This document shows positions 2,732 through 60,461 of a DNA stretch of 64,000 nucleotides, piece by piece (position 1 is the first letter of the stretch; each line of letters begins with the position of its first letter). A program made the translations under genes and the position numbers. The DNA is taken from positions 28,736 to 92,735 of the forward strand of contig CAINEY010000049.1 in NCBI GenBank assembly GCA_903847945.1, read 5' to 3'. The notes beneath the pieces were generated by a model, which saw only the letters and a list, made by a program, of their open reading frames with translations, was not told the DNA's origin and searched no databases. The DNA is from an uncultured bacterium. GTDB lineage: Bacteria; Bacillota_I; Bacilli_A; Erysipelotrichales; Erysipelotrichaceae.

Positions 2732-4537
2732 TTATGGTTTAAACGTTTCGAATAATTCAAAGATTTCAGAAAACTCATCAAAAGGCATGTAGCATCGGTA
2801 ATCGTAGTTGACCAGGATAATGACTCTGTACTGGCCCTGATCATCACCTGAAGGCCAATAGAGGAATGTCAGAACATCCCCGGTGGATGTTTTAAGGATG
2901 ACATCCGGATCACCTCCACCCCACTGGAAGGAGAACTCACTCCCATACCATGTCGCATCTTTCAAGAGTTGGCTGATGGCATCGGATTGAGTGCTGGTTA
3001 ATGCAACCCAAGTGTTTGTGTCCGGAACCTTATATTCGGTGATTTTTATGCCTGAAGGATCATAGTTGCTGGGAAGTTTGGCTAAGTACTCCATTTTACT
3101 AAAACTGTAAGGATTGGGATTACTGAACCGATAGAAGATGGCTCCCGGAGTTTGCGGATCTTCATCAACGAAAACGCCATCGTAAACAAAGCGATACATT
3201 GTTCCGATGGATGTGGTTAAGGTGAACCGGAAAGCATCGAGCAACGACTGAGTCGGGATATAGAAATCTTGAATCGAAGCCTTGCTTTCAAAGCTCATCA
3301 AATAATCGATCATCTCCTGATTCAGTTTTCCTGAAGTTTCTATGACACGGGTATCCCCCACAACACTCCATTGGGGGAATGTATAAGTTGTTTGATTATC
3401 GATTTTGAAGTCAAGCGCCGCAGAGGAATCGAGAGGGAATAAGGCAAGCAAGGCATAATCCATCAAAGCGGTGGCTCCAAACAGTTTAAAGGCGACATTC
3501 TCCGGTCCATGGAACGGATCTTTTCCAATAGACACGTAATAAGTCCAGTCATTGACATCTATCGATTCAACGTCATTCAAATAAACCGTGGTAAACATCC
3601 CGTCTTCGTTCTTCGTCATAAAGAGAATAGGATCATCAGGGTTTATCAATGTAGAGTCGATTGGTGTGTATTCGTCTTCGCTTAATTGACGCTTCTCAAG
3701 ATAGGAAGCAACAGTGGTTTCAGGGATCAGGACGAGTTTGCTTTCATCGAAACTGTTTTGGTTACCGACATAGATGGAGACCGGTATATACTCCCAAGAA
3801 ATGGTTTCTTGCGCGTTCTCCGCCATAAACTCCGACAACGACGTAATCACATCTTCCGGAATCGTATAGATGTATTTGGATTGATCATATCGGGTAACAA
3901 TCACGAAGTCTTGTGGGCTCGCATTGAAAATCGAGTAACCATCATTCTGTCTATTCCACAGGGTAAACACTTCGACTCCTTCTGGAGCTTAATCTTCAAG
4001 AAGAACCCAGTCTTGAGTTCTCAAGAGTGTTTTGACCTCTTGTAAGAGACCGTCCTCATGAATCGATCGTTCTGGATTTTGGGTGTCTAGAAAACCGATA
4101 AGCGGACTGATGCTGATCGATTGTTGTACGAAACGTTGATTCATAAACAACATAAACTCTTCATACAGATCCACGGAGATCGTGTAGCTAAACGTCTTCT
4201 CATCCTCATTGCGGGTAATGACAACCACCGGTTGATCCACACTCGAATCATCATAGAAGTCATAGGTGTTATTCTTTTCATCTGTAACCGTAAGGATCAA
4301 ATCATTCGTAGCGACAGTAACAGTCGCATTCTCTGTCCATTCCTTAGCGGTCAAAAGCGCTTCAACATCATCCCACAGATCCGAAAGACTCAGCTTTTGG
4401 TTTGGGTAAGCCGTTAAGCTTGCGTTACGAAACTTCACCGATAAGGGTGTAAAGGTTTCCGGAAGCGGTTTACTGGTGCAGGCAAAAGACGTCATCAAAA
4501 TACTCAAGACAAGGAAGAAGGTAATGGTTCGTTTCAT
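2732..4537 (-). pseudogene. Tandem paralogue B of the lipoprotein, interrupted by an in-frame TAA (ORF pieces 3989..4537 and 2732..3970)
   Basis: 5' piece has near-identical signal peptide MKRTITFFLVLSILMTSFACTSKP; the two pieces are in the same frame (...LLED*APEGVEVFTLWNRQ...) separated only by TAA at 3991-3989; C-terminal half is similar to paralogue A. Confidence 0.8.
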
Positions 4538-21146: not shown

Positions 21147-23577
21147 ACGGTTCAACGGAATAGGGGACAAAGGGCTCGGTTTTGAAGGTGACGGAGCTAC
21201 CCGGCGTGGAGTAGGTGTAGATCTTGGCTGGATCGAGATCGAGCTGTTTCGCCAGTTCGGAGGCCGGGGGTAGATCGTAGAGGATGTTGATATTGAAGGT
21301 GTACTCGCCCATGTAGTAGTAAATCTTGCTGTAGTCAGCGGAGGTCACCACATGCCCTCCCGACCAATAGGACTTCCCGATCATCTCTTCCAAGAAAATC
21401 GGAATAACCAAGGTCTGTCCGGGAGCCATTGAAGGTATCCGCATATTGAAGAGCGGTTTGAAGGTGGAGTAATAGGTGTTGTGATTGAAGATGTTGTAGA
21501 GCTCTTGCTGTTGGATATTGGCCGGTTGCTGGGAGTTGATCGAGGCGTTGTTGGTGATGCTCAGCGTTCCAGCCGGGGTGGGTTCATCATAAGGGTTGTG
21601 CAGGGTCAACAGGACATAAGCCGGACGATACATGAAGTCGGGGTCTTGTTTGATCCAGTCCCAGCCCATGGGGTTAGGCGTGGAGGTTGATGTGGATGCG
21701 TTGATGCTTTCACCGACACTGGTTCCTAATTCAACTAGACCATCTTTCATGTAGTCGTTGGCGGGGATCCCGGCACTCTCCATGGCGACGGTGGCTAAGT
21801 AATCCACGCCCAGATCCGTCAAATCATCAAAGTTGGGCAGGGTTGGGGGGATGCCCATGGACGCTAATCCATAATCCACCATGGCCGTTAAGGCATCTTC
21901 CAGCTCATCCCGTAAACTGTCCGGAATCAGCGGAAGGTTCTGAGCCACTAGCGTGATCAGTCCGGCTTTGAGTCCATTGTAGGTGGAAGCCACCCAATTG
22001 GTCAGTTGGGCAGCATAGGAAACCAGATCGCTGAAGAATTCGGTCACTGCATTGATGGCTTCTTCCCACCACGATTCATCTTCAGGGACTGGGGTGAAAT
22101 CCAGTTTCGTACCGACCGGATAACCGGAATACGGCTTATCTCCGCCAAACCCAAAGAAGATCTCTTTTTCCAACGGTTGTCGGATGACCACATAACGGTA
22201 GATCCATCCCGGACTCTCCCATTTAATGGGGATGTAGTCAACATCCGTGATGTCCGGAACGCGTGGATCCAGTTTGACGGTTTCGTAGAAAACGAAGTTA
22301 CTGGCTGCGGGACGTCCATAGTGCACTTTGACCGTCTTGGAGTTGTTTTGAGTGTAGGAGCCTAGGGTAGAGGTCGGAGTCAGGGTAACGACTCGCACGT
22401 AATAGTCGATCACATCGTTTTCGGCTAAAGCACTCAGTGCCGGAGCGAACTCCGCAAAATCGATGCACAGGGGATTGTATTTGGTCAGGTTGATGAAGTT
22501 GGGATCGTCATGATTGAGGATGCGCTGATAGACTAAGCCTCCTTGGGTTTCCCAATTGCCGCTGAAACCGACCTTGGAAACTTGAAGGACCATCTTGATG
22601 GCGTTATAGGGATAGCCTTCGGGTAAGAAACAGTAGCGTAAATCGGTATTGTTGGCGTTAAGCGTCCGTTCTGAAGCCATGGTGAAACGGTTGGGGAACT
22701 CGCCGGATTGATACGGCTCTCCGCTCCACTGGGTTGATAAAAGGTCATAGCGGAACTCGATTTGGCCGATAAAGCTGAATTTGGTCTTGGTGGCGGGTTG
22801 ACCATACAGAAGGGGTTGACCGACACCCCCATCACCAATGATCTTGTTTTGGCTGTCTAAGGCAATCACGCGCACATAGTACGTCTTTTGAACCGGGGCA
22901 CCGCCTAAGATGGGATCATCGACAAAGAACAGGGAATGCAGTTTCTGATCGCTCAGTTTAAAGATCGAGCGTAAACGTGTCGGGTTCAATGCTGTTTTTA
23001 GGTCAACCGAGAACTCGGTGCTGGAGGCACTGATGTCTTGACTGGAAATCAAACCCGGAGGATTTAAAGGATCGCTCTCTTTGCCGGGGAAGGGAGACAG
23101 ACTGATCTGCCAAACGTATTTGGCTGGGGTGATGTTGGAATCTTTGCGGATCGCAAACCAACGTACCGTATCCCCAGTGCTGTCCACAAAGACACTGTCT
23201 TGGTATTGGATCGTTTCGGGTTGTGCCACGGTCGGTGGCGCATCCTCCGAATCCCCAAACGCGTAGCGGGGTTTGGTGGAGGTGGTGGAAATGGATAAGG
23301 CCACTTTCGTATCGAAGACCGGACGGAAGAGTCGGTTGTCGAAATCAATGGCGTTGTACTTATCCAACTCCGGAATCAGGGCCAACGGATCGCTGGCCGG
23401 ATTGATGATCAGGGTTTGAAGGGCAGTGTCGATGGCTTCGTCATGGACATTGTCGGGAACTTCAATAATCGGGTCATTTTCACCGGGTTGTTTGGGCCAC
23501 CACAAAACCACCAGAACACTGGTGATGGCGAGTACGGCCACTAAACCCAGCACAATCCACGTTTTTGATTGTTTCAT
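21145..23577 (-). CDS. Large secreted/membrane-anchored protein of unknown function (start revised)
   Basis: N-terminal MKQSKTWIVLGLVAVLAITSVLVVLWW signal anchor; long beta-rich ectodomain; no family recognised. Confidence 0.65.
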   Translation of the reverse strand: MKQSKTWIVLGLVAVLAITSVLVVLWWPKQPGENDPIIEVPDNVHDEAIDTALQTLIINPASDPLALIPELDKYNAIDFDNRLFRPVFDTKVALSISTTSTKPRYAFGDSEDAPPTVAQPETIQYQDSVFVDSTGDTVRWFAIRKDSNITPAKYVWQISLSPFPGKESDPLNPPGLISSQDISASSTEFSVDLKTALNPTRLRSIFKLSDQKLHSLFFVDDPILGGAPVQKTYYVRVIALDSQNKIIGDGGVGQPLLYGQPATKTKFSFIGQIEFRYDLLSTQWSGEPYQSGEFPNRFTMASERTLNANNTDLRYCFLPEGYPYNAIKMVLQVSKVGFSGNWETQGGLVYQRILNHDDPNFINLTKYNPLCIDFAEFAPALSALAENDVIDYYVRVVTLTPTSTLGSYTQNNSKTVKVHYGRPAASNFVFYETVKLDPRVPDITDVDYIPIKWESPGWIYRYVVIRQPLEKEIFFGFGGDKPYSGYPVGTKLDFTPVPEDESWWEEAINAVTEFFSDLVSYAAQLTNWVASTYNGLKAGLITLVAQNLPLIPDSLRDELEDALTAMVDYGLASMGIPPTLPNFDDLTDLGVDYLATVAMESAGIPANDYMKDGLVELGTSVGESINASTSTSTPNPMGWDWIKQDPDFMYRPAYVLLTLHNPYDEPTPAGTLSITNNASINSQQPANIQQQELYNIFNHNTYYSTFKPLFNMRIPSMAPGQTLVIPIFLEEMIGKSYWSGGHVVTSADYSKIYYYMGEYTFNINILYDLPPASELAKQLDLDPAKIYTYSTPGSSVTFKTEPFVPYSVEP

Positions 23578-23861
23578 GGAGGGCTCCGAGATCACTGAGA
23601 TCGTCACCTTCATTATAGCGCCAGGATAAAGGGTGAAACAGAAGGTTCAAGGCTTTTCAAGCTCAAATCATCCAGAAGTTGTGAGTGAGAAATAACGAAC
23701 TAACGAGTTGAAGGGAAATTAAGCCAAGGCGGCTTTAATTTTGGCACTAGGGTCAATCTTGAGATGACTTCGGGAATAAAACCCTTTAAAACACAGGGGA
23801 TTATGCGTATCTTTAGAACTGTGAGTGAACGGATAATGGACTTATCCGGAAAGGACTGGAT

Positions 23862-32615: not shown

Positions 32616-34382
32616 ATGACGATCAATACCACTCAACTTTACAATGCTTTTATTCACGGCGCTCAATCGCTGATCGCCCAACGCCAGTCCCTTAACGCCA
32701 TCAATGTTTTTCCGGTGGCGGACGGGGATACCGGCACCAATATGGCTTCCACCGTGGAAGCCATTTTACGTCACGGACAACTCAAAGAAGGCATGGCGGA
32801 AACCTTGGCCTCCATTACCAACGCGGTAGCCCTCAATGCCCGAGGTAACTCCGGAGCCATCTTTGCCCAGTTTGTGATCGGACTCAATGAAACCTTACCC
32901 GATCGGGAACTCGACGACAAGGATGTCGTTATCGGTTTACAGGAAGCGGTCAAACGTGTTTACAGTGCGCTGAGTCATCCGGTTGAAGGGACAATGATCA
33001 CGGTGATGCGTCTGTGGGTCAGTGAGCTCGAACATCGCATCTCTAAAGGCCACGATCTCAAGGAAGCCTTCGATAAAGCCCTGCTTAGAGCCCATGAAGT
33101 GCTCAAGGATACGCCAAACCTGTTGACGGTACTCAAAGAACACCACGTGGTGGACAGCGGTGCCAAAGGCTTTGTGCACTTTTTGGAAGGCTTCTCGCAG
33201 GGCCTATTCACCAAATCCAAACCCACCATCGCCTTGGAAGATTCCCTAAGCTTTGAGGACAGTCATCTGGCGGATGCCCACGAAACCATTACCTACCGCT
33301 ATTGTACGGAAGCCTTGGTGGAAGGGGAAATCGGAGACATCAAAGCCAGGCTCGATGAATTGGGTGACAGTGTGCTCATCGTTAAGAGCCATCGCTTCAC
33401 CAAGATCCACCTCCACACCAATACCCCCGACCAAGTCATGGCTCTCTTGGAAACCCAAGGGAAACTCATCCAACAAAAGGCTGACGACATGATTCTTCAG
33501 CACGCGGATTTCACCCCGCATGCGGAGATTGCGCTATGGACCGATTCGATTGCCGATCTTCCGGCTTCAGTCATTCTTGAACACAAGATTCACGTCATGC
33601 CGTTGACGATAATGGTTGAAGGGTCACCTTACTTGGATCGATTGACCTTACCGGCTTCCCGCTTCTATGATCGGGTAAACACCTTCAAAGAATACCCCAG
33701 CTCTTCTCAACCCAACCAGAAGGCGGTAGAAGCCCGGTTCAAGGCTTTGTTAGGGAATTATAAGCATGTACTAGCCATTACCGTTTCCTCAGGGATGAGC
33801 GGTACCCATGCGGTCGTCAAAGCGGCTGCAGCTGCCTTTGACGGACGTGTCACGGTCATCGACTCCAAGAAAAACAGCGGCGCTCAAGGCTTATTGGTGC
33901 TTCAAACTGCCGAGTTGATAGCGAAAGGGCAAACCCTGGAGTCAATCGTTAAAACACTCAACGACAGTATTCCTAACACGCATATCTTCGTGAGTGTCGA
34001 TACCCTCAAATACATGGTCAAGATGGGACGCATCTCGCCGGTCGTGGGACGTATCGCCAAGTGGGTCAACCTCAAACCCATCGTCTCCATCGACCCCAAC
34101 GGAAAAGGGGTCACGATGGGATCCGCCTTCAGTAAAGCCCAAACCGAATCCAAGATCCTCAAACAGATCGATAACCTCTTAAAGTTGAATGATCTCGTCT
34201 CCTACGCGATTGTGCATGGGAACGATCCGCAACGGGCAGAGCGCTTTACACGGGTGCTTAGCGACAAACTGGGACAAGCCCCGGCTTTCGTGGAAGAAGT
34301 CTCGACAATCGTCGCCATGAGTGCCGGACCTAAGACGGTCGCCGTCGCACTCCAACTCATACCGAAAAGCAGTCAATCATAA
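32616..34382 (+). CDS. DhaL(DAK2)-DegV fusion protein (FakA/FakB-like)
   Basis: N-terminal NVFPVADGDTGTNMASTV, ARGNSGAIFAQF; C-terminal WTDSIADLPASV...TVSSGMSGTHAVV, VIDSKKNSGAQGLLV (DegV). Confidence 0.9.
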   Translation: MTINTTQLYNAFIHGAQSLIAQRQSLNAINVFPVADGDTGTNMASTVEAILRHGQLKEGMAETLASITNAVALNARGNSGAIFAQFVIGLNETLPDRELDDKDVVIGLQEAVKRVYSALSHPVEGTMITVMRLWVSELEHRISKGHDLKEAFDKALLRAHEVLKDTPNLLTVLKEHHVVDSGAKGFVHFLEGFSQGLFTKSKPTIALEDSLSFEDSHLADAHETITYRYCTEALVEGEIGDIKARLDELGDSVLIVKSHRFTKIHLHTNTPDQVMALLETQGKLIQQKADDMILQHADFTPHAEIALWTDSIADLPASVILEHKIHVMPLTIMVEGSPYLDRLTLPASRFYDRVNTFKEYPSSSQPNQKAVEARFKALLGNYKHVLAITVSSGMSGTHAVVKAAAAAFDGRVTVIDSKKNSGAQGLLVLQTAELIAKGQTLESIVKTLNDSIPNTHIFVSVDTLKYMVKMGRISPVVGRIAKWVNLKPIVSIDPNGKGVTMGSAFSKAQTESKILKQIDNLLKLNDLVSYAIVHGNDPQRAERFTRVLSDKLGQAPAFVEEVSTIVAMSAGPKTVAVALQLIPKSSQS

Positions 34383-47669: not shown

Positions 47670-47681
47670 GCGTTCTTTTAA
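47658..47681. terminator. Bidirectional terminator overlapping stop codon
   Basis: AAAAGAACGCTGAGCGTTCTTTT. Confidence 0.75.
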
Positions 47682-48409
47682 TTTAAAGGGATCGTATGAT
47701 GCAGAACCAAGGCTTCACCGGGGGTGTAGCTTTCCCAAAACAGGATCAGGGCTCTGCTCTCATCCGTGATGGATCCGCTGACAACGGAACCCACGGAAAG
47801 GCGTTTGATGCTGAGCAGATCACAGACCTCGGGTGACAGGACGACGGCGTTGAGGGTCTTATGTAGGCCGGAAGGGAGGACCCCGTAGTGTTCCCGTAAA
47901 TGTTGATACGCCGGTTGATCACCGCTGAGCACTTGTTCAAGGTTGGGGTAACGGTCCAGGGGATAGTAGGAATCGACGACCTGGTAATCGTTGCCGTTGA
48001 CGGAGACGATACGCCGCTGACGCCACAAACGGGTCGAAGGAGCTAAGTGATGGGCACTTTGTTGAGCTGGGCTTGGCATTACGCTTTGAGCTCCAAGAAT
48101 GCGGGTGGTCACGGTGTTGCCGCTTTCACGCTGTTCATCTTCGATCGGCGTCAACGAGTGGAAGAAGTGGCGCAAGTGCTTGATCTGACGCACCATAACG
48201 CCTTGGCCTTTGAGTCGAACGCAGGTGTGTTCACGGATAAGCGCATTCAACGCATCGCGAACGGCTCCGGCGTGCACCCCAAACTCCACACAGAGGTCGT
48301 GTTGGGAAGGTAAGAAAGTTCCGGTGGGATAGACGCCGGAGAGAATGCGCTGTCTTAAAATCTTCTCGAGTTGCAGGCGTTGGGCCTGACGCGGTTGAAT
48401 CAGGGTCAT
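47678..48409 (-). CDS. GntR family regulator with UTRA-like domain
   Basis: LEKILRQRILSGVYPTGTFLPSQHDLCVEFGVHAGAVRDALNALIREHTCVRLKGQGVMV. Confidence 0.88.
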   Translation of the reverse strand: MTLIQPRQAQRLQLEKILRQRILSGVYPTGTFLPSQHDLCVEFGVHAGAVRDALNALIREHTCVRLKGQGVMVRQIKHLRHFFHSLTPIEDEQRESGNTVTTRILGAQSVMPSPAQQSAHHLAPSTRLWRQRRIVSVNGNDYQVVDSYYPLDRYPNLEQVLSGDQPAYQHLREHYGVLPSGLHKTLNAVVLSPEVCDLLSIKRLSVGSVVSGSITDESRALILFWESYTPGEALVLHHTIPLN

Positions 48410-49116
48410 GGTAAGGTGACCTCCAGGTGATGATCCAGGGAACTGAACAAGGCTTTGACTAGAATCAACGGGGTCTTCTGTTCCATGACCACGGCGATCG
48501 TCTTATACAAGGGGGATTTGGATTTGATTCCCAACAGGATCGCCGCACTGTCATCAGCCTGAGCAATCATGACTTCCTGGTCGAGGTGAGTGGGATGAAA
48601 GGGATCGGTCAAGTTGAGGAGTGACCAGTCGCAGTTTTCCACCAAAGGCTGATCATACCGCGAAGCTGGCAGATACACATCCTCCAGGATCAAGGGATGG
48701 CCTTTTTGTCGATGTAGTCGCTTGATGTGGTAGAACTCCGTCTCACCGTCAAAGTCAAAGCGTAAGGCTTCCATCGGCGGATCGATCCTTTCTATCGACA
48801 AGACATGAGTCGTCATCGATGGATTCAGTTCTCCCACATACGTGTGGAAGTGTTCGATGATACCGCTTTGTTTGGGGCGAGGGGATACGTAGGTGCCCTT
48901 GCCTTTGTGGCGGATGACCTTACCATCGTTGATTAAGAGTTGGTAGGCCTGACGAACGACCGGACGGGAAATATTGAACGTCATCGAAATCATCTCTTCG
49001 GTCGGCAAGAGATCGTTGTACGTTAAAAGACCCTGATCGATGGCGGTGTTAAAGGCGTCGTAGAGCTGTCGGTAAAGCGGAACCGTGGTAAACTTGTTGA
49101 GCTGAATGTAGTACAT
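48406..49116 (-). CDS. GntR family regulator with UTRA-like domain (start revised)
   Basis: VPLYRQLYDAFNTAIDQGLLTYNDLLPTEEMISMTFNISRPVVRQAYQLLINDGKVIRHKGKGTYV. Confidence 0.9.
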   Translation of the reverse strand: MYYIQLNKFTTVPLYRQLYDAFNTAIDQGLLTYNDLLPTEEMISMTFNISRPVVRQAYQLLINDGKVIRHKGKGTYVSPRPKQSGIIEHFHTYVGELNPSMTTHVLSIERIDPPMEALRFDFDGETEFYHIKRLHRQKGHPLILEDVYLPASRYDQPLVENCDWSLLNLTDPFHPTHLDQEVMIAQADDSAAILLGIKSKSPLYKTIAVVMEQKTPLILVKALFSSLDHHLEVTLP

Positions 49117-49185
49117 ATTTCCTTTTAATTGTCGACCGATGGCCAAACTTTAAGAATGGTATACCACATTAAACGAAATAAAACA

Positions 49186-50937: not shown

Positions 50938-52467
50938 ATGCACATCAAAATGACTGAAGCCCGCATGTTGGCTGTCAATATCTCGTCTCGTTTCTCAGCG
51001 TATTTGGTCAACATCGCGATCAGCTTCTTTTTAACACCGTTCATTCGATCGGCCTTAGGTACGGCTACCTATGGGTTTTTGGGCTTAGGGCAGAACTTCG
51101 TTTCATATCTGGATATCTTTACATTCTTAACAGCCGGGACGATCTTTCGCTATGTCATGATCGAACACACTCAGGATAATCCCGAGAAGGTCAATCATTA
51201 CCTGGCCAGTTCGTTTTACGGGACCTTAATCTATGTGGCGATCATGGTGGTTCCGGTCATTTACGGGATCTTCCGCTTAGCGTCGTTTGTGCAGATCGAT
51301 CCGGCAATCGTCGGGGATGTGCAACTCCTTTTCGCACTCTTACTGGTCAATTTCGTGCTCAACACGTTCTTCCTCATCTTTAGAATTGGAACCCAAGTCG
51401 TCAACAAGTACTACCTGATCGCCGTGCGGGATCTGTTGGCGGTGTTTGTGGAAGTCAGTATCCTGCTCTTTCTCTACACCAACTTTGAACCCAAACTGTA
51501 TTACCTGGGGATCTCCATGGTGATCATCTCGACACTGACCCTGATCTTTGATTACGGGATGCTGCGTCGGTTCTTGCCGGGTGTTCGTTTGAAGTGGGTT
51601 TATGTCAAACTGGATTATCTCAAGCAATTGATGAGTTCCGGCTTCTACCACATGGTCAAACAGCTCTCAACGGTATTGCTGGTTGGTTTGGACCTGTGGT
51701 TTGCAAACGTGTTTGTCTCCGATTTGGCCATGGGCCAATTGGCCATTGCCAAGATCCTGCCTAAGACGATGCAGAGTTTCTTGAATCTGGCGACGGGTTC
51801 CTTCAACGTGCTCTTTACGCGGTTGTATGCCCAGAAGCGCATCCAACATTTGGTCACGCAGATCCAGCGCGGAATCAAAGTGCTGGGGACCGTTACGATG
51901 TTGCCGAATGTGATTCTGGTGGTCTATGGTTATCCGTTCTTTAAACTGTGGATCCCCGGTGAAAATGCAATGCTGATCTATCAGTTGTCCGTGCTGACGG
52001 CGCTGGTCTTGGTGGTCAGCGGATTGACGCAACCCTTACACAACGTCTTTATGATGACCAACCGCTTGAAATTCAATGCCTTGGTGCACTTGATCTATGG
52101 GATCGTATCGACGGTTACCGTGTTGATCTTCCTTCAAACCACCGATTACGGGATCTATGCGATTGCGGGGGTGAGTACGATCTATGGGTTACTCTTGCCG
52201 TTTGTCTTTCAGATTCCGTATGCAGCCGTCTGTTTGGATGTACCACGTCGCACGTTCTATCCGGTCATCCTCAAATCCATGCTGGTCTTTGGATTGATGG
52301 TGGGTACCGGTTTTATGATGTCGATCGTGTTGATGCCGACGACCTGGATCCAACTGATCATCGACTGTGCGATCCTGGGTTTTATCAGTGTCGCTATCCT
52401 TACATTCTTCTATTTCACCGCCGATGAACGCCAGATGTTCCTCAACATCTTTAGACGTCACGCATGA
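50938..52467 (+). CDS. Polysaccharide flippase/MATE-like exporter
   Basis: 12-14 TM pattern; LAVNISSRFSAYLVNIAISFFLTPFIRSALGTATYGFLGLGQNFVSYL. Confidence 0.78.
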   Translation: MHIKMTEARMLAVNISSRFSAYLVNIAISFFLTPFIRSALGTATYGFLGLGQNFVSYLDIFTFLTAGTIFRYVMIEHTQDNPEKVNHYLASSFYGTLIYVAIMVVPVIYGIFRLASFVQIDPAIVGDVQLLFALLLVNFVLNTFFLIFRIGTQVVNKYYLIAVRDLLAVFVEVSILLFLYTNFEPKLYYLGISMVIISTLTLIFDYGMLRRFLPGVRLKWVYVKLDYLKQLMSSGFYHMVKQLSTVLLVGLDLWFANVFVSDLAMGQLAIAKILPKTMQSFLNLATGSFNVLFTRLYAQKRIQHLVTQIQRGIKVLGTVTMLPNVILVVYGYPFFKLWIPGENAMLIYQLSVLTALVLVVSGLTQPLHNVFMMTNRLKFNALVHLIYGIVSTVTVLIFLQTTDYGIYAIAGVSTIYGLLLPFVFQIPYAAVCLDVPRRTFYPVILKSMLVFGLMVGTGFMMSIVLMPTTWIQLIIDCAILGFISVAILTFFYFTADERQMFLNIFRRHA

Positions 52468-53477
52468 TCGATCCGGCACTGCTTGAATCCTTGATTCCGG
52501 ATCAGATTCCGGGTCTTGCCATCGGACTTGTCACCCCAACCTCCATGTCGACTCAAATCGCGGGGTATCGGGCGTTGGTGCCGGATCGTGAACTCTTAAC
52601 AATCGACACGCGTTTTGATTTGGCTTCGCTCACTAAGGTGGTCGTTACGACCACGATCATCCTTCAGCTCATCGATGAAGGCCGTTTATCCTTGGATACG
52701 ACCATTCAATCCATCCTGCCGAACTACATCCACCCCGTCACCACGATCCATGACGTGCTGACGCATCAATCCGGACTCCCGGCGGATGATCCGGCCTATC
52801 GTCAGTGTGCCGATGCGCAAGTTCTTCGTCAATTCACGCTAACCCATCCGCTCAGTGTTCAACCGCGCTCACACGTCATCTACACCGATTTCGGGTTCTT
52901 GATCTTGGGATGGGTCATCGAAGCCTTGGAGGGACCGTTGGATCGTGTCACTCAACGGCGGATCGCACAACCGTTAGGGTGTTCATTAGGTTTCCTGCCT
53001 AAAGACCCCATGAACTGTGCCCCGACGGAAGACAGTCCCACTCGCGGAGTGATCCGTGGCGTTGTCCATGACGGAAAAGCATTTAAAATGAATGGCGTAG
53101 CAGGGAATGCGGGATGTTTTGCGACCCTTGGGGACGTGTGCACCTTCGTTCAAAGCTTCCTGGATGGCCGGCATCGCTTGCTCGGTGCGAACGCTCTGTC
53201 ACTCTTGCGTCAAACTCATACGAAAGGACTCGATCATGAGCGTACGTTAGGGTGGTATCGGCATGATCCGAGCTGTGCTTTTGGACAATTTGTCAGTGAG
53301 GATTGCCTGTTTCATACGGGGTTTACCGGGACGTCGATCACCATTGATTTTGAGCGTCAGATCGGCCTGGTCCTGTTGACAAACCGGGTTCATCCTCATC
53401 GCGACAATGCGAGCATTACGCCGATCCGAAATCTCCTGCATGATCAAGTGTTTTCCAAGTTTCCCGTAAACTTGTGA
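52464..53477 (+). CDS. Serine beta-lactamase-like hydrolase
   Basis: FDLASLTKVVVTT (SxxK), YTDFGFLILGWVIE (YxN-type motif), HTGFTGTSI. Confidence 0.9.
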   Translation: MIDPALLESLIPDQIPGLAIGLVTPTSMSTQIAGYRALVPDRELLTIDTRFDLASLTKVVVTTTIILQLIDEGRLSLDTTIQSILPNYIHPVTTIHDVLTHQSGLPADDPAYRQCADAQVLRQFTLTHPLSVQPRSHVIYTDFGFLILGWVIEALEGPLDRVTQRRIAQPLGCSLGFLPKDPMNCAPTEDSPTRGVIRGVVHDGKAFKMNGVAGNAGCFATLGDVCTFVQSFLDGRHRLLGANALSLLRQTHTKGLDHERTLGWYRHDPSCAFGQFVSEDCLFHTGFTGTSITIDFERQIGLVLLTNRVHPHRDNASITPIRNLLHDQVFSKFPVNL

Positions 53478-53593
53478 ACCGCTTTTACAAACTGAACGAC
53501 TTTAACGCTTTAGCACCCACAATTGTGCACAAATCGCATTGTAATGTGTTTTTAGCTGGCGTATATTATACTTACGACACCTCGGGGGTACCC

Positions 53594-54151
53594 ATGAATT
53601 GGATTTTTTTAGGTCTCGCAGCGTTTCTAGCTCTGACGCTGTTTGATGTCCATAAATTGAAACCGATTCATCCGCTCTTTAACGGCCTTTTTGCCTTAGG
53701 TGTTGGGATGTTGGTAGTGGCAACGTATGGGATCTTGTCCAGTGAACCGTGGTTTACGATTCCGGCTTCTCCCAGTGCGTGGATCTTTGCAGGTTTGGGC
53801 TTGGGTGAGATGATTTTCGCCCTGTTTTTGGCCCTTCCGTTTTCTGCAACGTACGTGGAACAACCCGATCAGCATCCGGTCATCAGCACCGGGCTTTACG
53901 GGATCTGTCGTCATCCCGGCGTCTGGGGCTTCATTCTTTATTACTTGGCTGCTTCAGTGGCCAGCGGGAACGGTACCTTACTGGTGGCCGGGATCATGTT
54001 TAGCCTGGCGGATGTCGCGCATGTGACCCTGCAGGATCGTCTCTTCTTCCGGCAGACCCTCATCGGGTATGCCGATTACCAAACCCGGGTGCCCTTTCTG
54101 TTCTTTGGATGGAAAGACATCAAACGGGCTTACCTCAAGGAACAATCATGA
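53594..54151 (+). CDS. PEMT/ICMT-like membrane methyltransferase (start revised)
   Basis: Multi-TM; HPVISTGLYGICRHPGVWGFILYYLA...DRLFFRQTLIGYADYQTRVPF. Confidence 0.8.
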   Translation: MNWIFLGLAAFLALTLFDVHKLKPIHPLFNGLFALGVGMLVVATYGILSSEPWFTIPASPSAWIFAGLGLGEMIFALFLALPFSATYVEQPDQHPVISTGLYGICRHPGVWGFILYYLAASVASGNGTLLVAGIMFSLADVAHVTLQDRLFFRQTLIGYADYQTRVPFLFFGWKDIKRAYLKEQS

Positions 54152-55758
54152 ATTTTGATGCCTTGCTCAACGCCAAACGAAAAGATGAAATCTGGCAGAA
54201 ATACTGCGGGTTTTTAGATTTGAGCGTGAGCGAGTTCATGGACATCCAAAACAGTCTTTTGTTGGAACAACTCCAGCTGTTTGAAAACAGTGAACTGGGC
54301 CGTTCTATCTTTAAGAATAAACATCCCAAAACGGTGGCGGAATTCCGCAAGATGATTCCGCTGACCGAGTATGACGATTACGCAGATATTCTGTTGTCCA
54401 AGGAAGTATCGAAACTCCCGGCCAAACCGGTGGTGTGGATCGAAACGACCTGGGAAGGCGGAAGAGCGCCGGTCAAAGTGGCCCCGTATACGGCAGCCAT
54501 GGTTGAGAATTATAAAGAAGCTTGCCTGGCGTGCATCATTTTAGCGTCCTCCAAAGCCAAGGGCGAGTTCGATCTGAAAGTTGGCATGAACTTCCTCAAC
54601 GGGATGGCACCATTACCGTATTTAACCGGACTGCTGCCGGATGTGCTCGAAGGCGAGTACACCGTGAATTACTTCCCGCCCATCAAAGAAGGCTTGGCCA
54701 TGAGTTTTGGTCAACGCAACAAAGAAGGCTTCAAGATGGGACTCAAACAGGGTTTGGATCTCTTCTATGGGCTTTCCAGCGTCATCGTCCGCATGAGCGA
54801 ACAATTCGTGGAAGGCTCCGGTTCCACCAAGACCTCCCTGAGCGGCTTTAAAGTGAGCCAATTGGCGAAGTATGCGGTCGCCAAGATCCGTTCAAAGATC
54901 GATGGGCGTCCGGTCTATCCCAAAGACGTGTTCAACCTCAAAGGTTTTGTGTGCATCGGTACCGATACCTTGCATTTCAAACAAAAGATCGAAGACTACT
55001 GGGGCATCCGTCCCTTGGAAGTGTTCGGCGGAACCGAAGTCACCTGCATCGCGATCGAATCCTGGATCAAGGACGGCTTGGTGCTCTTGCCCAACATGTG
55101 TTTCTATGAGTTCATGCCGATGAGCGAGTTCTACAAGAACCTGGAGAACCCCTCCTACGTTCCCAAGACCTACACCTTGGATGAGATCAAGGAAGACGAG
55201 TACTACGAACTGGTCGTCACCAACTTTAAGGGCGGAGCCTTTGTCCGTTATCGGGTCGGAGACATCTTCAAGTGTGAACCCAACACCAAGAAAACCGACG
55301 GCGTCAAGCTGCCGCATTTCCGCTACATCGATCGCATCGATCCGGTCATTGATTTGGCTGGGTTTACCCGCATCACCGAAGCCACCATTGCGCAAGCCAT
55401 TACGATGTCGCACCTGCACATCACCTCATGGTTTGCCTTAAAGCGCTACGACAGTCAGCATCGTCCCTACATCAACCTCACGATCGAGCTTAATCATCCG
55501 CAGAACGATCCGGGCTTTGATGATGCCGTGCTGATCAAAGAACAGCTCGAAATCTACTTCAAGTACATCGATGGCGATTACGCCAACCTGCATAAGATGC
55601 TGGGGATCGAACCGCTTCAAGTCACGATCATCCCGTACGGAACGATCGACCGTTACCTGAAGACGATCAGTCATCCCTTACAAAAGGTGAATCCGAATCA
55701 TTATGACGTGGTCGAGATCATGAAGTTGGCCTATGGCACTAAAGGGGATCGCGCATGA
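54148..55758 (+). CDS. GH3 auxin-responsive-promoter family (acyl-adenylating) protein
   Basis: TVAEFRKMIPLTEYDDYADIL; VCIGTDTLHFKQKIEDYWGIRPLEVFGGTE; YYELVVTNFKGGAFVRYRVGDIFKC. Confidence 0.85.
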   Translation: MNFDALLNAKRKDEIWQKYCGFLDLSVSEFMDIQNSLLLEQLQLFENSELGRSIFKNKHPKTVAEFRKMIPLTEYDDYADILLSKEVSKLPAKPVVWIETTWEGGRAPVKVAPYTAAMVENYKEACLACIILASSKAKGEFDLKVGMNFLNGMAPLPYLTGLLPDVLEGEYTVNYFPPIKEGLAMSFGQRNKEGFKMGLKQGLDLFYGLSSVIVRMSEQFVEGSGSTKTSLSGFKVSQLAKYAVAKIRSKIDGRPVYPKDVFNLKGFVCIGTDTLHFKQKIEDYWGIRPLEVFGGTEVTCIAIESWIKDGLVLLPNMCFYEFMPMSEFYKNLENPSYVPKTYTLDEIKEDEYYELVVTNFKGGAFVRYRVGDIFKCEPNTKKTDGVKLPHFRYIDRIDPVIDLAGFTRITEATIAQAITMSHLHITSWFALKRYDSQHRPYINLTIELNHPQNDPGFDDAVLIKEQLEIYFKYIDGDYANLHKMLGIEPLQVTIIPYGTIDRYLKTISHPLQKVNPNHYDVVEIMKLAYGTKGDRA

Positions 55759-58304
55759 ATCAGATCCTGGTGCTGATCTATTGGGGCATCCCCGTACTCT
55801 CCCTGACCTTCTCCTTGGGCATCTTTGTCATTTTGGCCTTGTCCAAGAAAGACAAGATGATCAACGCCTTCATGATGATGATGGCGTCCATGGTGCTGTG
55901 GTCCTTTGCGACCCTCATGATGAAGCTTTCCGTTGAACCGGGATCCTTGTTCTGGAACCGGGTGATGGTGGGCGCACTGATGCTGATCCCGTATACCGGT
56001 TACCTGTTCTTCATGACCTTCGTCCGCATGCGTCGGCGTTTTGCGCTGATGTTCTGGGGCGTGTTGGAAGTTTTGATGCAGATCGTCAATGCGATGGGGT
56101 ACACCACCACCGCCGCCGTGATGAAACAAGTGCCGTACTCACCTTACGTTGAACTTGAGTACACCTTAGGGATCGGCGCTTATGTTTCGTACGTGTTGAT
56201 CTTTGCGTTGTTATTGACCTGTTTGTTCATGGCGCAACGCGAGTATAAGAAATCGCGTTATCTGGGCGGATTAAAGAACGTTATTCTGGCCCTGTTCATC
56301 ATCTTCATTGGGATCGGAGCCAACTTGGTGCCAGTCATCGGGAAATACCCCATCGACTTCTTTGCGGGATCCATCGCCTCCATGTTCATCATGTGGGCCA
56401 TTTACCGCAACCGGGTCTTGGAACTTAAGTTCGTTATCACCAAGGCCGTTGTGTTTACGGTGCTCTTGACAGCCGTAACCGTTGCCTCGATCTTTGCGGT
56501 CAACGGACTTATCGGATTCTTTGAAAACTTGGGCATGGATACCAACATCTTCATCCTGATCGTCACCTTCGTGTCCTTGATCATTTTCCAGCCGATCTTC
56601 AAGTTCATCTACAACATCGTCAATCAGCTCTTCTACAAGGAAGAAAAAGCGCGTGAAGAACGCACCGAAGCCTTTACCCGTCAGATCGCCAACAACCTGA
56701 AACTGTCGTCGGTTGCGGAAGCGCTTATGTCGGCAGTGGCGGATGTCAGCGGCAATTTGCGCAATTACTTGTTCATTTACGATGAAGAATCCAGCTCCTA
56801 CCGCTTCTACATGGCGTCCAAACGCTTAGAGAACCTGAGCTTCGCCATGACGAAACAACACCCCTTTGTGATGTGGTTCGACCAATACGATGAACTGATC
56901 ACCGGGAAACAGCTCGATACGAATCCGTTCTTTAAGACGATGTGGGATGATGATCGCCGCGACTTGAACTCCATCCTCTTCGAAGTGGCCATTCCGCTCA
57001 AAGCGAACGGGAAACTCATCGGGATGGTGCTAATGTGCCACAAAGACACGCATTCCATCAAAGACATGGAACACACCCAACAGATCAATATCCTGGGGAT
57101 GACCGCGTCCTTGGCTATCTCCAACGCCTTGATGTTTGAAAAGGCCCGTGAAGAAGCCACCATCGATAACCTGACACAAACCTTCAATCACCGTTACTTC
57201 ATGGATGAACTGGCTGAAGCCACAGCTAAGACGAAGACGTCATTGACCTTGGCGTTGAGCGGCGTTGACCAGTTCAACATCTACAATGACCTTTACGGTC
57301 ACTACGAAGGCGACCATGCCTTAGCCAAGATTGCCTCCAAGATCAAACAAGTCGTGGGTGATCGCGGAACGGTTTGCCGTTACCAAGGCGACATTTTCGC
57401 CATCATCCTCCCGGATACGGATACGAAGAAGGCCTATGACCTCATCGAAAAGATCCGCGTCGTCATCGAAGGCCTTACGATTGCCTCCGTTGAAGACCCG
57501 TACCGTCACCTGACCCTCTCGACCGGGTTGTGCACCTTCCCGATCCAAGCCAATGACGATAAGATCCTCTTGAAGAATGCCGGCTTGGCCTTGGCGGAAG
57601 CCAAACGCAGTGGTCGTAACCGCACCGTGTTGTACAACTCCACCGTCGCCGAAGATGAAGAAGTCACGGCATTGGATGAGAATCAATTGGCTACGGTGTA
57701 TGCCTTGACCGCCGCTATCGACGCCAAGGACCACATCACCTTCGGTCACTCGCAGCGCGTCGCCCAATACGCCACGGCCATCGCCAGTGCCATGGGTGCT
57801 AAACCCAGCGAAATCGAAACGATCCGTCTGGCTTCGCTCTTGCATGACATCGGAAAGATCGGGATCCCGGAACACGTCTTGACCAAGACGACCCGCCTGA
57901 CCACCGAAGAATACGAAATCATGAAAAAACACGTGGATCTCTCGATCACGATCATCAAACACATGCCGTCCTTCGCCAAGGTTATACCTAGCGTGATCGG
58001 ACATCATGAACGATGGGACGGGAAAGGTTATCCGCGTCACCTGGCCAAGGAAGAGATTCCGTTTGGGGCTCGCTGCATCGCCGTCGCCGACGCCTTTGAC
58101 GCCATTACGTCGGATCGTCACTACAAATCACTCTACGACATCGACATTGCGGTTCAGGAAATCGAACGCAATGCGGGAACCCAATTCGATCCCGACATGG
58201 CCATCACCTTCGCCAAACTCATCCGTGAAGGCAAGGTCCTGATCGAACCCACCCGGTCTACCGTTTACTCCATCGAAAGCTTCCTTGAAAAACCCGTCAA
58301 CTAG
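55755..58304 (+). CDS. 7TM - GAF - (degenerate) GGDEF - HD-GYP protein
   Basis: Seven-plus TM N-terminus; RYQGDIFAIIL in GGDEF position; ASLLHDIGKIGIPEHVL and HHERWDGKGYP HD-GYP motifs. Confidence 0.92.
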   Translation: MNQILVLIYWGIPVLSLTFSLGIFVILALSKKDKMINAFMMMMASMVLWSFATLMMKLSVEPGSLFWNRVMVGALMLIPYTGYLFFMTFVRMRRRFALMFWGVLEVLMQIVNAMGYTTTAAVMKQVPYSPYVELEYTLGIGAYVSYVLIFALLLTCLFMAQREYKKSRYLGGLKNVILALFIIFIGIGANLVPVIGKYPIDFFAGSIASMFIMWAIYRNRVLELKFVITKAVVFTVLLTAVTVASIFAVNGLIGFFENLGMDTNIFILIVTFVSLIIFQPIFKFIYNIVNQLFYKEEKAREERTEAFTRQIANNLKLSSVAEALMSAVADVSGNLRNYLFIYDEESSSYRFYMASKRLENLSFAMTKQHPFVMWFDQYDELITGKQLDTNPFFKTMWDDDRRDLNSILFEVAIPLKANGKLIGMVLMCHKDTHSIKDMEHTQQINILGMTASLAISNALMFEKAREEATIDNLTQTFNHRYFMDELAEATAKTKTSLTLALSGVDQFNIYNDLYGHYEGDHALAKIASKIKQVVGDRGTVCRYQGDIFAIILPDTDTKKAYDLIEKIRVVIEGLTIASVEDPYRHLTLSTGLCTFPIQANDDKILLKNAGLALAEAKRSGRNRTVLYNSTVAEDEEVTALDENQLATVYALTAAIDAKDHITFGHSQRVAQYATAIASAMGAKPSEIETIRLASLLHDIGKIGIPEHVLTKTTRLTTEEYEIMKKHVDLSITIIKHMPSFAKVIPSVIGHHERWDGKGYPRHLAKEEIPFGARCIAVADAFDAITSDRHYKSLYDIDIAVQEIERNAGTQFDPDMAITFAKLIREGKVLIEPTRSTVYSIESFLEKPVN

Positions 58305-58319
58305 GCGGGTTTTCTTTTT
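58285..58319 (+). terminator. Terminator overlapping the HD-GYP stop codon
   Basis: AAACCCGTCAACTAGGCGGGTTTTCTTTTT. Confidence 0.75.
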
Positions 58320-58354
58320 AACGCGCTATAATGAGGGTGAAAGAAGGTGACGTT

Positions 58355-59650
58355 ATGGCGCTGGTCAGTGCTCTTTTCGTCCCTCATCCGCCCATCATCC
58401 TTCCCGAAGTCGGTCACGGGGAAGAACGGGCGATCCAAGCCACCATCACGGCCTATCAAAATGCCGCAGACCACGTTCGACGCAGCCGACCGGACACGTT
58501 GGTTGTCCTCTCCCCGCATGCGCCGTTTCATCCTCAAGCCTTTACGGTCAGTATCGCCGCCCAGGAATCCGGTCATTTGGGCCGTTTCGGTGCGCCACAG
58601 GTTCAAATCGACGTCGAAACCGATCGGGAACTGATCGACAGTTTGGCCCGTTCCGGTTCACCACTACGACTGACCACCCAAGCCGGTCCCTTGGATCACG
58701 GTACGCTGATCCCGTTGCGGTTTCTGTTTACCGAGTCCATTCATCCGCAAATCGTCCGCATTGGACTCTCCGGCAACTCCCGGGAAGCTCATGAAGCGCT
58801 TGGTGCGCACCTCGTGGCCGCAGCTGAACAACTTCAGCGCCGCATCGCCATCATCGCCAGCGGCGATCTGTCTCATCGCTTAAAACCCGATGGACCTTAC
58901 GGGTATGACCCTTCCGGTCCACGTTTCGATACGCAGTTCATCCACGCTCTTCAACACAATGATTTCGGAGCCATCGCCCGTATGGATCCGGAGTTGTGTG
59001 AGGAAGCCGGGGAATGCGGTTACCGCAGTGCCCTGATTCTGGGCGGTGCCTTATCGAAAGTCCCCATGACATGCCAAGTCCTTTCCTATGAAGGACCCTT
59101 TGGGGTGGGGTATGCGGTGGCCCTCTTTAAGCCGGGGGATCCCTTGGTTCAATGGGCCAAAGCTGTGATCACCAGTCACGTCAACGGAACAACGTTGGAT
59201 GAGAACTTGGGAAAGCATCCCGATCAGCGTCATCATCGGGCGGCGGTCTTTGTCTCCCTGCATCGCCAACACCAGTTGCGCGGCTGCATCGGCACCCTCG
59301 CACCGACCCAACCCAACCTCACTGAAGAAATCCGTCACAATGCCATCAGTGCGTGTAGCCATGATCCGCGGTTCTATCCGGTCATTGCGGAAGAACTGGA
59401 GGATCTGGAGGTGGGGGTCGATGTCTTAAGTGCACCGCATCCCATTCGTTCGATCGATGAACTTGATGTGAAGCGGTATGGGGTCATTGTCTCTTCCGGA
59501 AGCCGACGAGGTGTTCTCTTGCCGGATATTGACGGGGTTGAGACCGTGCTCGATCAAGTTTCGATTGCCTGTCGAAAAGCCGGGATCGATCCGGATGAAC
59601 CCTATGCGATGGAACGCTTTGAAGTGGTGCGTCACCATGACCCGGTGTGA
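58355..59650 (+). CDS. AmmeMemoRadiSam system protein B - protein A (Memo/LigB-like + AMMECR1) fusion
   Basis: N-terminal FVPHPPIILPEVG...VVLSPHAPFH...LDHGTLIPLRFL...ASGDLSHRL; C-terminal FVSLHRQHQLRGCIGTLAPTQPNLTEEIRHNAISACSHDPRFYPV (AMMECR1). Confidence 0.93.
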   Translation: MALVSALFVPHPPIILPEVGHGEERAIQATITAYQNAADHVRRSRPDTLVVLSPHAPFHPQAFTVSIAAQESGHLGRFGAPQVQIDVETDRELIDSLARSGSPLRLTTQAGPLDHGTLIPLRFLFTESIHPQIVRIGLSGNSREAHEALGAHLVAAAEQLQRRIAIIASGDLSHRLKPDGPYGYDPSGPRFDTQFIHALQHNDFGAIARMDPELCEEAGECGYRSALILGGALSKVPMTCQVLSYEGPFGVGYAVALFKPGDPLVQWAKAVITSHVNGTTLDENLGKHPDQRHHRAAVFVSLHRQHQLRGCIGTLAPTQPNLTEEIRHNAISACSHDPRFYPVIAEELEDLEVGVDVLSAPHPIRSIDELDVKRYGVIVSSGSRRGVLLPDIDGVETVLDQVSIACRKAGIDPDEPYAMERFEVVRHHDPV

Positions 59651-60461
59651 ACTCTGTTTTCATCACTGTACATTATCGGAAGGCCAGATCGGCTTCTGTC
59701 GGGCCAGGATCAACCGAAACGGTCACATCGAATCTTTGGTGCGCAACACCGTGGTTTCGATCGCCTTGGATCCCATCGAAAAGAAGCCTTTGGCCTTCTT
59801 TCATCCGGGATCGATGATCCTGTCGCTGGGGAGTACCGGGTGTAATCTGCGATGTCCGTTTTGTCAGAATCACGCGATATCCATGGCGGATCACGATCCG
59901 GCTTCAAGTCGTTCATTACCGCCGGAAGAAGCGGTGGACTTGGCTTTGAGTTTGGTTCCCCGCGGTAATCTGGGGATTGCCTTCACCTACAACGAACCCT
60001 TGATCAATTTCGAATATGTGGAAGAAACGGCCCAACTGGCGCATGCGGTAGGACTAAAAACCGTCCTTGTCACCAATGGGACCGCAGAAGAGGCGGTGAT
60101 ACGACGGATCCTGCTGCATATCGATGCCTTTAATATCGACCTCAAAGGTTTCACCCCTGAGTTCTACGAAAAGCTCCACGGCGATTTGGCGAGTGTCAAA
60201 CGGACGATTGCCTTGTGTGTCGGTCATGCCCACGTGGAGATCACGACCCTGATCATTCCGGGTGAGAACGATGATCCCGAAGTGATGGAGGAGATGGCGA
60301 AATGGTTGGCTTCACTGGATCCGGATTTGCCCTTACATCTGACCCGTTTCTTTCCGCATTACCTGTGGACGGACAAAAAGATCACGCCGATCGAAACCTT
60401 ACGTCATCTTCAAACGGTCGCTCGAAAACATCTCAATCGGGTTTTATTGGGGAATGTCTAA
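59637..60461 (+). CDS. AmmeMemoRadiSam system radical SAM enzyme (start revised)
   Basis: CELCFHHCTLSEGQIGFCRAR, GCNLRCPFCQN (CxxxCxxC), AFTYNEPLINFEYV. Confidence 0.94.
   Translation: MTRCELCFHHCTLSEGQIGFCRARINRNGHIESLVRNTVVSIALDPIEKKPLAFFHPGSMILSLGSTGCNLRCPFCQNHAISMADHDPASSRSLPPEEAVDLALSLVPRGNLGIAFTYNEPLINFEYVEETAQLAHAVGLKTVLVTNGTAEEAVIRRILLHIDAFNIDLKGFTPEFYEKLHGDLASVKRTIALCVGHAHVEITTLIIPGENDDPEVMEEMAKWLASLDPDLPLHLTRFFPHYLWTDKKITPIETLRHLQTVARKHLNRVLLGNV

Follow-up and report, generated by a model that had tools for sequence, protein, structure and literature searches.

Why should the genes of three proteins, one a methyltransferase-like membrane protein, one of the GH3 family and one a membrane sensor with an HD-GYP domain, stand in one row in the genome of an uncultured bacterium, and what might they do together? 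The window (the whole stretch analysed, 64,000 nucleotides of contig CAINEY010000049.1) belongs to host genome G000, a 1.53-Mb assembly in 63 contigs that is 79% complete and whose closest named relatives are Erysipelotrichaceae MAGs.

The locus

The features of the locus, with the basis of each assignment, are as follows.

53594..54151, + strand: ICMT/PEMT-fold integral membrane methyltransferase-like protein, 185 aa (open reading frame, motifs, predicted structure)
54148..55758, + strand: GH3-family (ANL-superfamily) protein, 536 aa (Pfam, motifs, predicted structure, hhalign)
55755..58304, + strand: predicted 7TM-GAF-GGDEF*-HD-GYP sensor/phosphodiesterase, 849 aa (Pfam, aligned ligand positions)
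53539..53567, + strand: possible sigma-70-like promoter, weak, 9/12 matches (not above chance)
58289..58313, + strand: intrinsic terminator, a hairpin of 10 pairs that overlaps the HD-GYP stop codon (-13.9 kcal/mol, z -2.9)

The original prediction described three genes joined by 4-nt overlaps, and both junctions (54148-54151 and 55755-55758) indeed share the sequence ATGA. The methyltransferase gene starts at ATG 53594, which agrees with the starts of its relatives; an in-frame GTG at 53474 does not. The promoter-sized gap proposed at 53478-53593 is real (116 nt), but its sole sigma-70-like site is at chance level. The terminator expected after the last gene is present and overlaps the final stop codon. 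No riboswitch or other structured RNA reached the gathering threshold within the window.

Conservation of the three genes

Could the three genes be neighbours by chance? A scan of GTDB, with one genome per species, gave 315 GH3 relatives, and the best 80 of these were taken for neighbourhood analysis. At least one partner gene adjoins GH3 in all 80 of these loci, and both partners are adjacent on the same strand in 73. The seven exceptions consist of three loci cut by contig ends (L049, L057 and L062) and four (L045, L047, L050 and L056) in which the methyltransferase and GH3 genes are separated by a single gene for a class I SAM methyltransferase. This extra gene is found in Syntrophomonadaceae or Pelotomaculum-type loci, and in two others (L043 and L048) it lies upstream. 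The carriers among the best 80 of 315 are Bacillota, i.e. Erysipelotrichales, Desulfotomaculum- and Syntrophomonas-type bacteria, Lachnospiraceae and Oscillospiraceae; one carrier labelled Fermentimonas is probably a mis-binned contig. Co-conservation in related genomes had been named beforehand as a refutation test, and the module survived it, with no contradicting locus among the best 80 of 315.

In 12 aligned relatives the order and strand of the trio are kept, and beyond the closest relatives the flanks are wholly different. Identities across these alignments are 27-53% for the methyltransferase, 42-79% for GH3 and 28-73% for the HD-GYP protein. The trio also persists in loci L158-L163, from more remote families within the class. 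Pairwise distances correlate with a rho of 0.89 between GH3 and the HD-GYP protein and of 0.63 between the methyltransferase and each of the other two, a statistic that ignores kinship.

Co-occurrence was followed in 295 genomes of the order Erysipelotrichales, where the GH3, the methyltransferase type and the 7TM sensor occur in 38, 37 and 40 genomes, respectively, despite fully changing flanking genes. The 38 genomes with strong module-type GH3 matches include one decayed copy (G099). PEMT-type matches of at least 62 bits mark the same genomes minus G284, where the contig stops inside GH3, and the next best match elsewhere has 45 bits. The 7TM-GAF part is present in the 38 GH3-positive genomes and in G048 and G075, which have an intact 820-aa sensor and lack the enzymes. 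One genus offers a decay series: the module is intact in G084, G099 has broken enzymes and an intact sensor, and only GH3 remnants persist in G091, all near the same nitroreductase gene (loci L149, L150 and L174).

The three genes are thus inherited, lost and diverging together. Their co-conservation is far above chance, which rules out chance adjacency; conserved adjacency and near-perfect co-occurrence bear out the earlier view that they form one functional unit, and the existence of a three-gene module is near certain. Two other possibilities were rejected. The first, a mobile element, finds no backing in phage or plasmid collections, where the module GH3 is without a match, and the canonical GH3s of the same order, which have other neighbours and a TSGTTG-type loop, are not members. 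No earlier description of a GH3/HD-GYP module was found in the open-access literature searched.

The GH3-family protein

Is the second protein an acyl-adenylase, as had been supposed? The window protein matches GH3_M (E 7e-15, 55.3 bits against a Pfam cut-off of 23.6), and its GH3 N-terminal domain falls just under the cut-off (23.0 against 23.6 bits); at E<=0.001 the two domains match 12/12 and 11/12 aligned members. The predicted model (pLDDT 83, pTM 0.85) resembles plant GH3 (TM about 0.6, E about 1e-17) and PaaK-type ligases, and module GH3s align with canonical GH3s of the same order (hhalign, 99.5%, E 3.7e-23). Among viral structures there were only distant GH3-like matches. By fold and domains the module protein is a GH3-family member, with a putative acyl-adenylating or acyl-amide chemistry.

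The label 'acyl-adenylase' itself needs revision, because the ATP phosphate-binding motif of the family is missing in every member. In the window protein, motif I is rewritten as WIETTWEGGRAPVK, while motif II (FGGTE) and motif III (RYRVGD) are intact. The canonical nucleotide motif I, [ST]SGT[ST]xG, occurs in 0/93 aligned rows. W-x-x-T-T-W-[E/K] stands in place of SSGTSxG in 92/92 readable relatives, and none has [ST][ST]G[ST][ST]. The loop carries an acidic residue, E103, replaced by K in a distant clade; in L158-L162 it reads W-x-x-T-T-W-K. Its alignment is ambiguous, as the hydroxyls are replaced in an ungapped version and a gapped one, by inserting two residues, retains a Thr where the Ser stands. 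Motifs II (FGGTE/FAGTE) and III (RYRxGD) are kept in nearly all members; about 100 near-invariant positions and a hinge of the ANL type are retained as well. The plant acyl acid amido synthetases JAR1 and GH3.12 have the fold, the GH3_M domain and motifs II and III in common with the module proteins, but they have the SSGTSxG motif I, which the module proteins never do. The bacterial enzyme OlsH likewise retains motif I (TSGTTQG) with an essential serine (PMC12493201), and the replacement of this motif in all module GH3s means that adenylation is not assured.

A canonical-type GH3 gene (LTSGSTNRPKKIFLT) was seen at L164:4528-9424 (- strand), in an apparent SpoIIE-phosphatase/RsbW-like kinase/STAS partner-switch operon with DegV nearby (by eye), a second case of GH3 in the company of signalling genes.

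The membrane methyltransferase-like protein

The first protein had been called PEMT-like. The window copy lies below every Pfam cut-off (ICMT 19.2 against 24 bits, PEMT 17.4 against 25), but 26/48 of its relatives match PEMT at E<=0.01 (best E 6.6e-9), and the fold of its AlphaFold model (pLDDT 93.8) is of the ICMT/PEMT kind. The best structural matches are Ma-ICMT (probability 0.98) and eukaryotic ICMT (0.97), with a TM of 0.5 but an E of only 0.1. Canonical ICMT and PEMT methyltransferases have an E-E pair at the C-terminus. The module proteins share with them the RHP motif, within G-x-Y-x-x-x-RHPG, but the E-E pair is absent and is replaced by Q-D, or by Q-E in a distant clade.

The sensor

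The domain architecture predicted for the third protein, 7TM-GAF-GGDEF*-HD-GYP, is upheld, and its HD-GYP active site is complete but for one variable ligand position. Pfam matches are HD_5 (2e-38), GGDEF (1e-33) and HisKA_7TM (1e-10), with GAF_2 below the cut-off (6e-5). The domains are, by residue:

19-224: HisKA_7TM
317-455: GAF_2
468-623: degenerate GGDEF (RYQGDIF)
654-814: HD-GYP

Active-site positions were taken from PmGH (PMC4159591), and 11 were checked. Ten are invariant in the readable rows (D659, H665, H697, D698, K701, H726, H750, H751, D779 and D782), and the HHExxDGxGYP motif is present in the module HD-GYP domains. The eleventh, position 661, is equivalent to E185 of PmGH; it is Tyr in 73/82 relatives, Phe in 4/82 and Ile (window) or Val in 5/82. 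HD-GYPs with Tyr or Phe at this position form a subfamily predicted to be binuclear (PMC4159591), to which the module domain probably belongs, judging from its sequence. The module thus matches the phosphodiesterases PmGH and RpfG in the HD, the HHExxDGxGYP motif and all but one of the metal ligands (PMC4159591), and differs from them in having Tyr or Phe at E185 in nearly all members and in its fusion to a 7TM-GAF-degenerate-GGDEF sensor.

The GG[DE]EF signature is intact in 13/82 relatives; the others, like the window protein, have a degenerate form. It is also intact in the distant L158, L161 and L163. Residues D505 and N511 never vary and D520 hardly does, as would suit a GTP-binding regulatory domain, which is the probable role of these mostly inactive domains. 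The host genome has 16 GGDEF domains, which points to a c-di-GMP network.

Neighbouring genes

Do neighbours hint at the chemistry? The original prediction gave the upstream flippase and serine hydrolase (50938-53477) a role in exporting or cleaving the ligand. This idea found no support, as neither gene is near the distant modules: the flippase adjoins the module only in some relatives of the same genus (L015, L016 and L017), and the serine hydrolase only in L016 and L017. These two genes, together with the AsnC/aminotransferase and AmmeMemoRadiSam genes, were rejected as module parts, with conservation within the genus at most.

In 16 of the best 80 of the 315 loci the operon opens with a DegV gene (PF02645, E 5e-54) immediately before the module, often spaced 1-6 nt from it or overlapping it; most of the 80 lack this gene. 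The solved fatty-acid-kinase subunits FakB1 and FakB2 are among the sequence relatives of these module-linked DegV proteins. The host genome encodes six DegV proteins, one of which, in the window, is fused to FakA-type domains; this 588-aa protein (32616-34382, + strand; DAK2, FakA middle/C and DegV) appears to be a fatty-acid kinase A with its fatty-acid-binding B subunit in a single chain. In five distant genomes (L158-L162) the module is divergent from butyrate kinase-like and phosphotransbutyrylase-like genes and a third metabolic gene, as read by eye. The DegV and butyrate-type genes and the precedent of OlsH-OlsG point to conjugation and methylation of a fatty or carboxylic acid, and to no specific compound. 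The ICMT-like fold and the additional SAM methyltransferase of several loci fit the same lipid theme.

A ThiF/MoeB-like E1 gene (family by eye) also adjoins the module, upstream in L054 and L057 and downstream in L058.

A possible pathway and its alternatives

What precedent is there for such a set of genes? In Singulisphaera acidiphila, the GH3-family enzyme OlsH and the SAM N-methyltransferase OlsG, encoded in one operon with the alpha/beta hydrolase OlsI, turn free fatty acids into methylated N-acyl amino acids, namely methylated N-acyl-ornithine lipids (PMC12493201). The module likewise pairs a GH3 with a methyltransferase, but it has an HD-GYP sensor where no c-di-GMP protein is described for the Ols operon (PMC12493201). 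No OlsI-type hydrolase was seen to recur beside the module in neighbourhoods read mostly by eye, and a beta-lactamase-fold gene is there at genus level only. For the module we infer the substrate, product, ligand and direction of control; in the light of OlsH-OlsG, a methylated N-acyl or fatty-acid product linked to a membrane c-di-GMP phosphodiesterase is the best reading.

The GH3 protein would couple an amine, for example an amino acid, to a carboxylic acid, fatty or other, which in some lineages would come from the DegV/FakB-type carrier of the preceding gene. This product would be methylated at N or carboxyl by the membrane methyltransferase, and the 7TM/GAF sensor would read the methylated product, or its membrane pool, and switch the local HD-GYP phosphodiesterase. 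The whole would be a pair of synthase and one-protein receptor, resembling RpfF/RpfR in working but built of unrelated parts. The RpfF/RpfR (BDSF) system of Burkholderia and Cronobacter, the closest working analogue, though by analogy only, has a dedicated lipid-signal synthase and a one-protein receptor with GGDEF and c-di-GMP phosphodiesterase domains; it differs in its signal, a cis-2 unsaturated fatty acid, and in having a PAS sensor and an EAL domain; GGDEF is the sole homologous part (PMC3703271, PMC4698668). None of the three module genes is an RpfF-type crotonase by Pfam, and none was seen to recur alongside (neighbours mostly by eye). That the trio is a conserved membrane-lipid signalling operon of Bacillota, with an acyl-conjugating GH3, a methyltransferase and a product-reading 7TM c-di-GMP phosphodiesterase, is our tentative reading, and we would put its chances somewhat below even.

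Might the enzymes instead capture, detoxify or store exogenous acids, which the 7TM-HD-GYP protein senses from outside, with no self-made signal? The sensor stands alone in two genomes and outlives the decayed enzymes in a third, and thus may read something that the operon does not make; the two lone sensors leave room for a sensor of external acids, and a strictly self-made ligand is not proven. The DegV/FakB-type neighbour, the six DegV proteins of the host and the divergent butyrate-type genes of the five distant loci (by eye) are in keeping with this account. It leaves unexplained, however, why the sensor is almost never without the enzymes (38/40 genomes have both) and why the methyltransferase is always present, and we regard it as unlikely.

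The product could also be a structural lipid, as in the OlsH-OlsG precedent (PMC12493201), its enzymes being under local c-di-GMP control by an HD-GYP protein that regulates them or the envelope and receives no ligand. Since the methyltransferase, like the sensor, sits in the membrane, a local complex can be envisaged, but Pfam scans show no recognizable c-di-GMP-binding domain in either enzyme and a 7TM and GAF sensor argues for an input; this arrangement seems distinctly improbable. Still less probable is that the GH3-like protein has lost its enzymatic role and now assists the phosphodiesterase as a partner that binds a nucleotide or ligand. Such a change would suit the replaced motif I and the charged residue in its loop, but the retention of motifs II and III, the hinge and the many near-invariant residues, the constant company of the methyltransferase and the Thr that one profile alignment keeps at the essential Ser position all speak against it.

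Returning to the signalling operon, the preservation of the trio as a unit across many Bacillota lineages suggests an undescribed lipid-linked signalling system. To our knowledge, few c-di-GMP sensors have a known ligand; in this case the ligand's likely source is encoded in the sensor's own operon, which opens input, enzyme and output to joint study. A defined set of cultured genera carries the module, e.g. Lactonifactor, Murimonas, Butyricicoccus, Oscillibacter and [Clostridium] clostridioforme. The module also sets a GH3 subfamily without the ATP loop of its family in a context rich in functions, and brings DegV/FakB fatty-acid carriers into a putative signalling operon. A bolder version would have hormone-like lipid signalling in Bacillota, including gut Clostridia: the variant GH3 and the methyltransferase would make a methylated N-acyl compound through which their own 7TM receptor lowers c-di-GMP. 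Bacteria would then have their equivalent of hormone conjugation by plant GH3 enzymes, and the enzyme's loop would handle nucleotides or acyl-phosphate in a new way. We think it rather doubtful that this holds in full. Gut Lachnospiraceae make acyl amines via a different, CTA-type operon (PMC13060934).

Other observations in the window

Three large open reading frames, all on the - strand, have no Pfam match at E 0.001 (654-2561, 636 aa; 2735-3970, 412 aa; 21148-23613, 822 aa). Two tandem GntR-like regulators (47678-49146, - strand; family assigned by eye) overlap by 4 nt. Directly past the terminator lies an AmmeMemoRadiSam-type system (58331-60461, + strand), in which a LigB (Memo-like)-AMMECR1 fusion is followed by a radical SAM enzyme.
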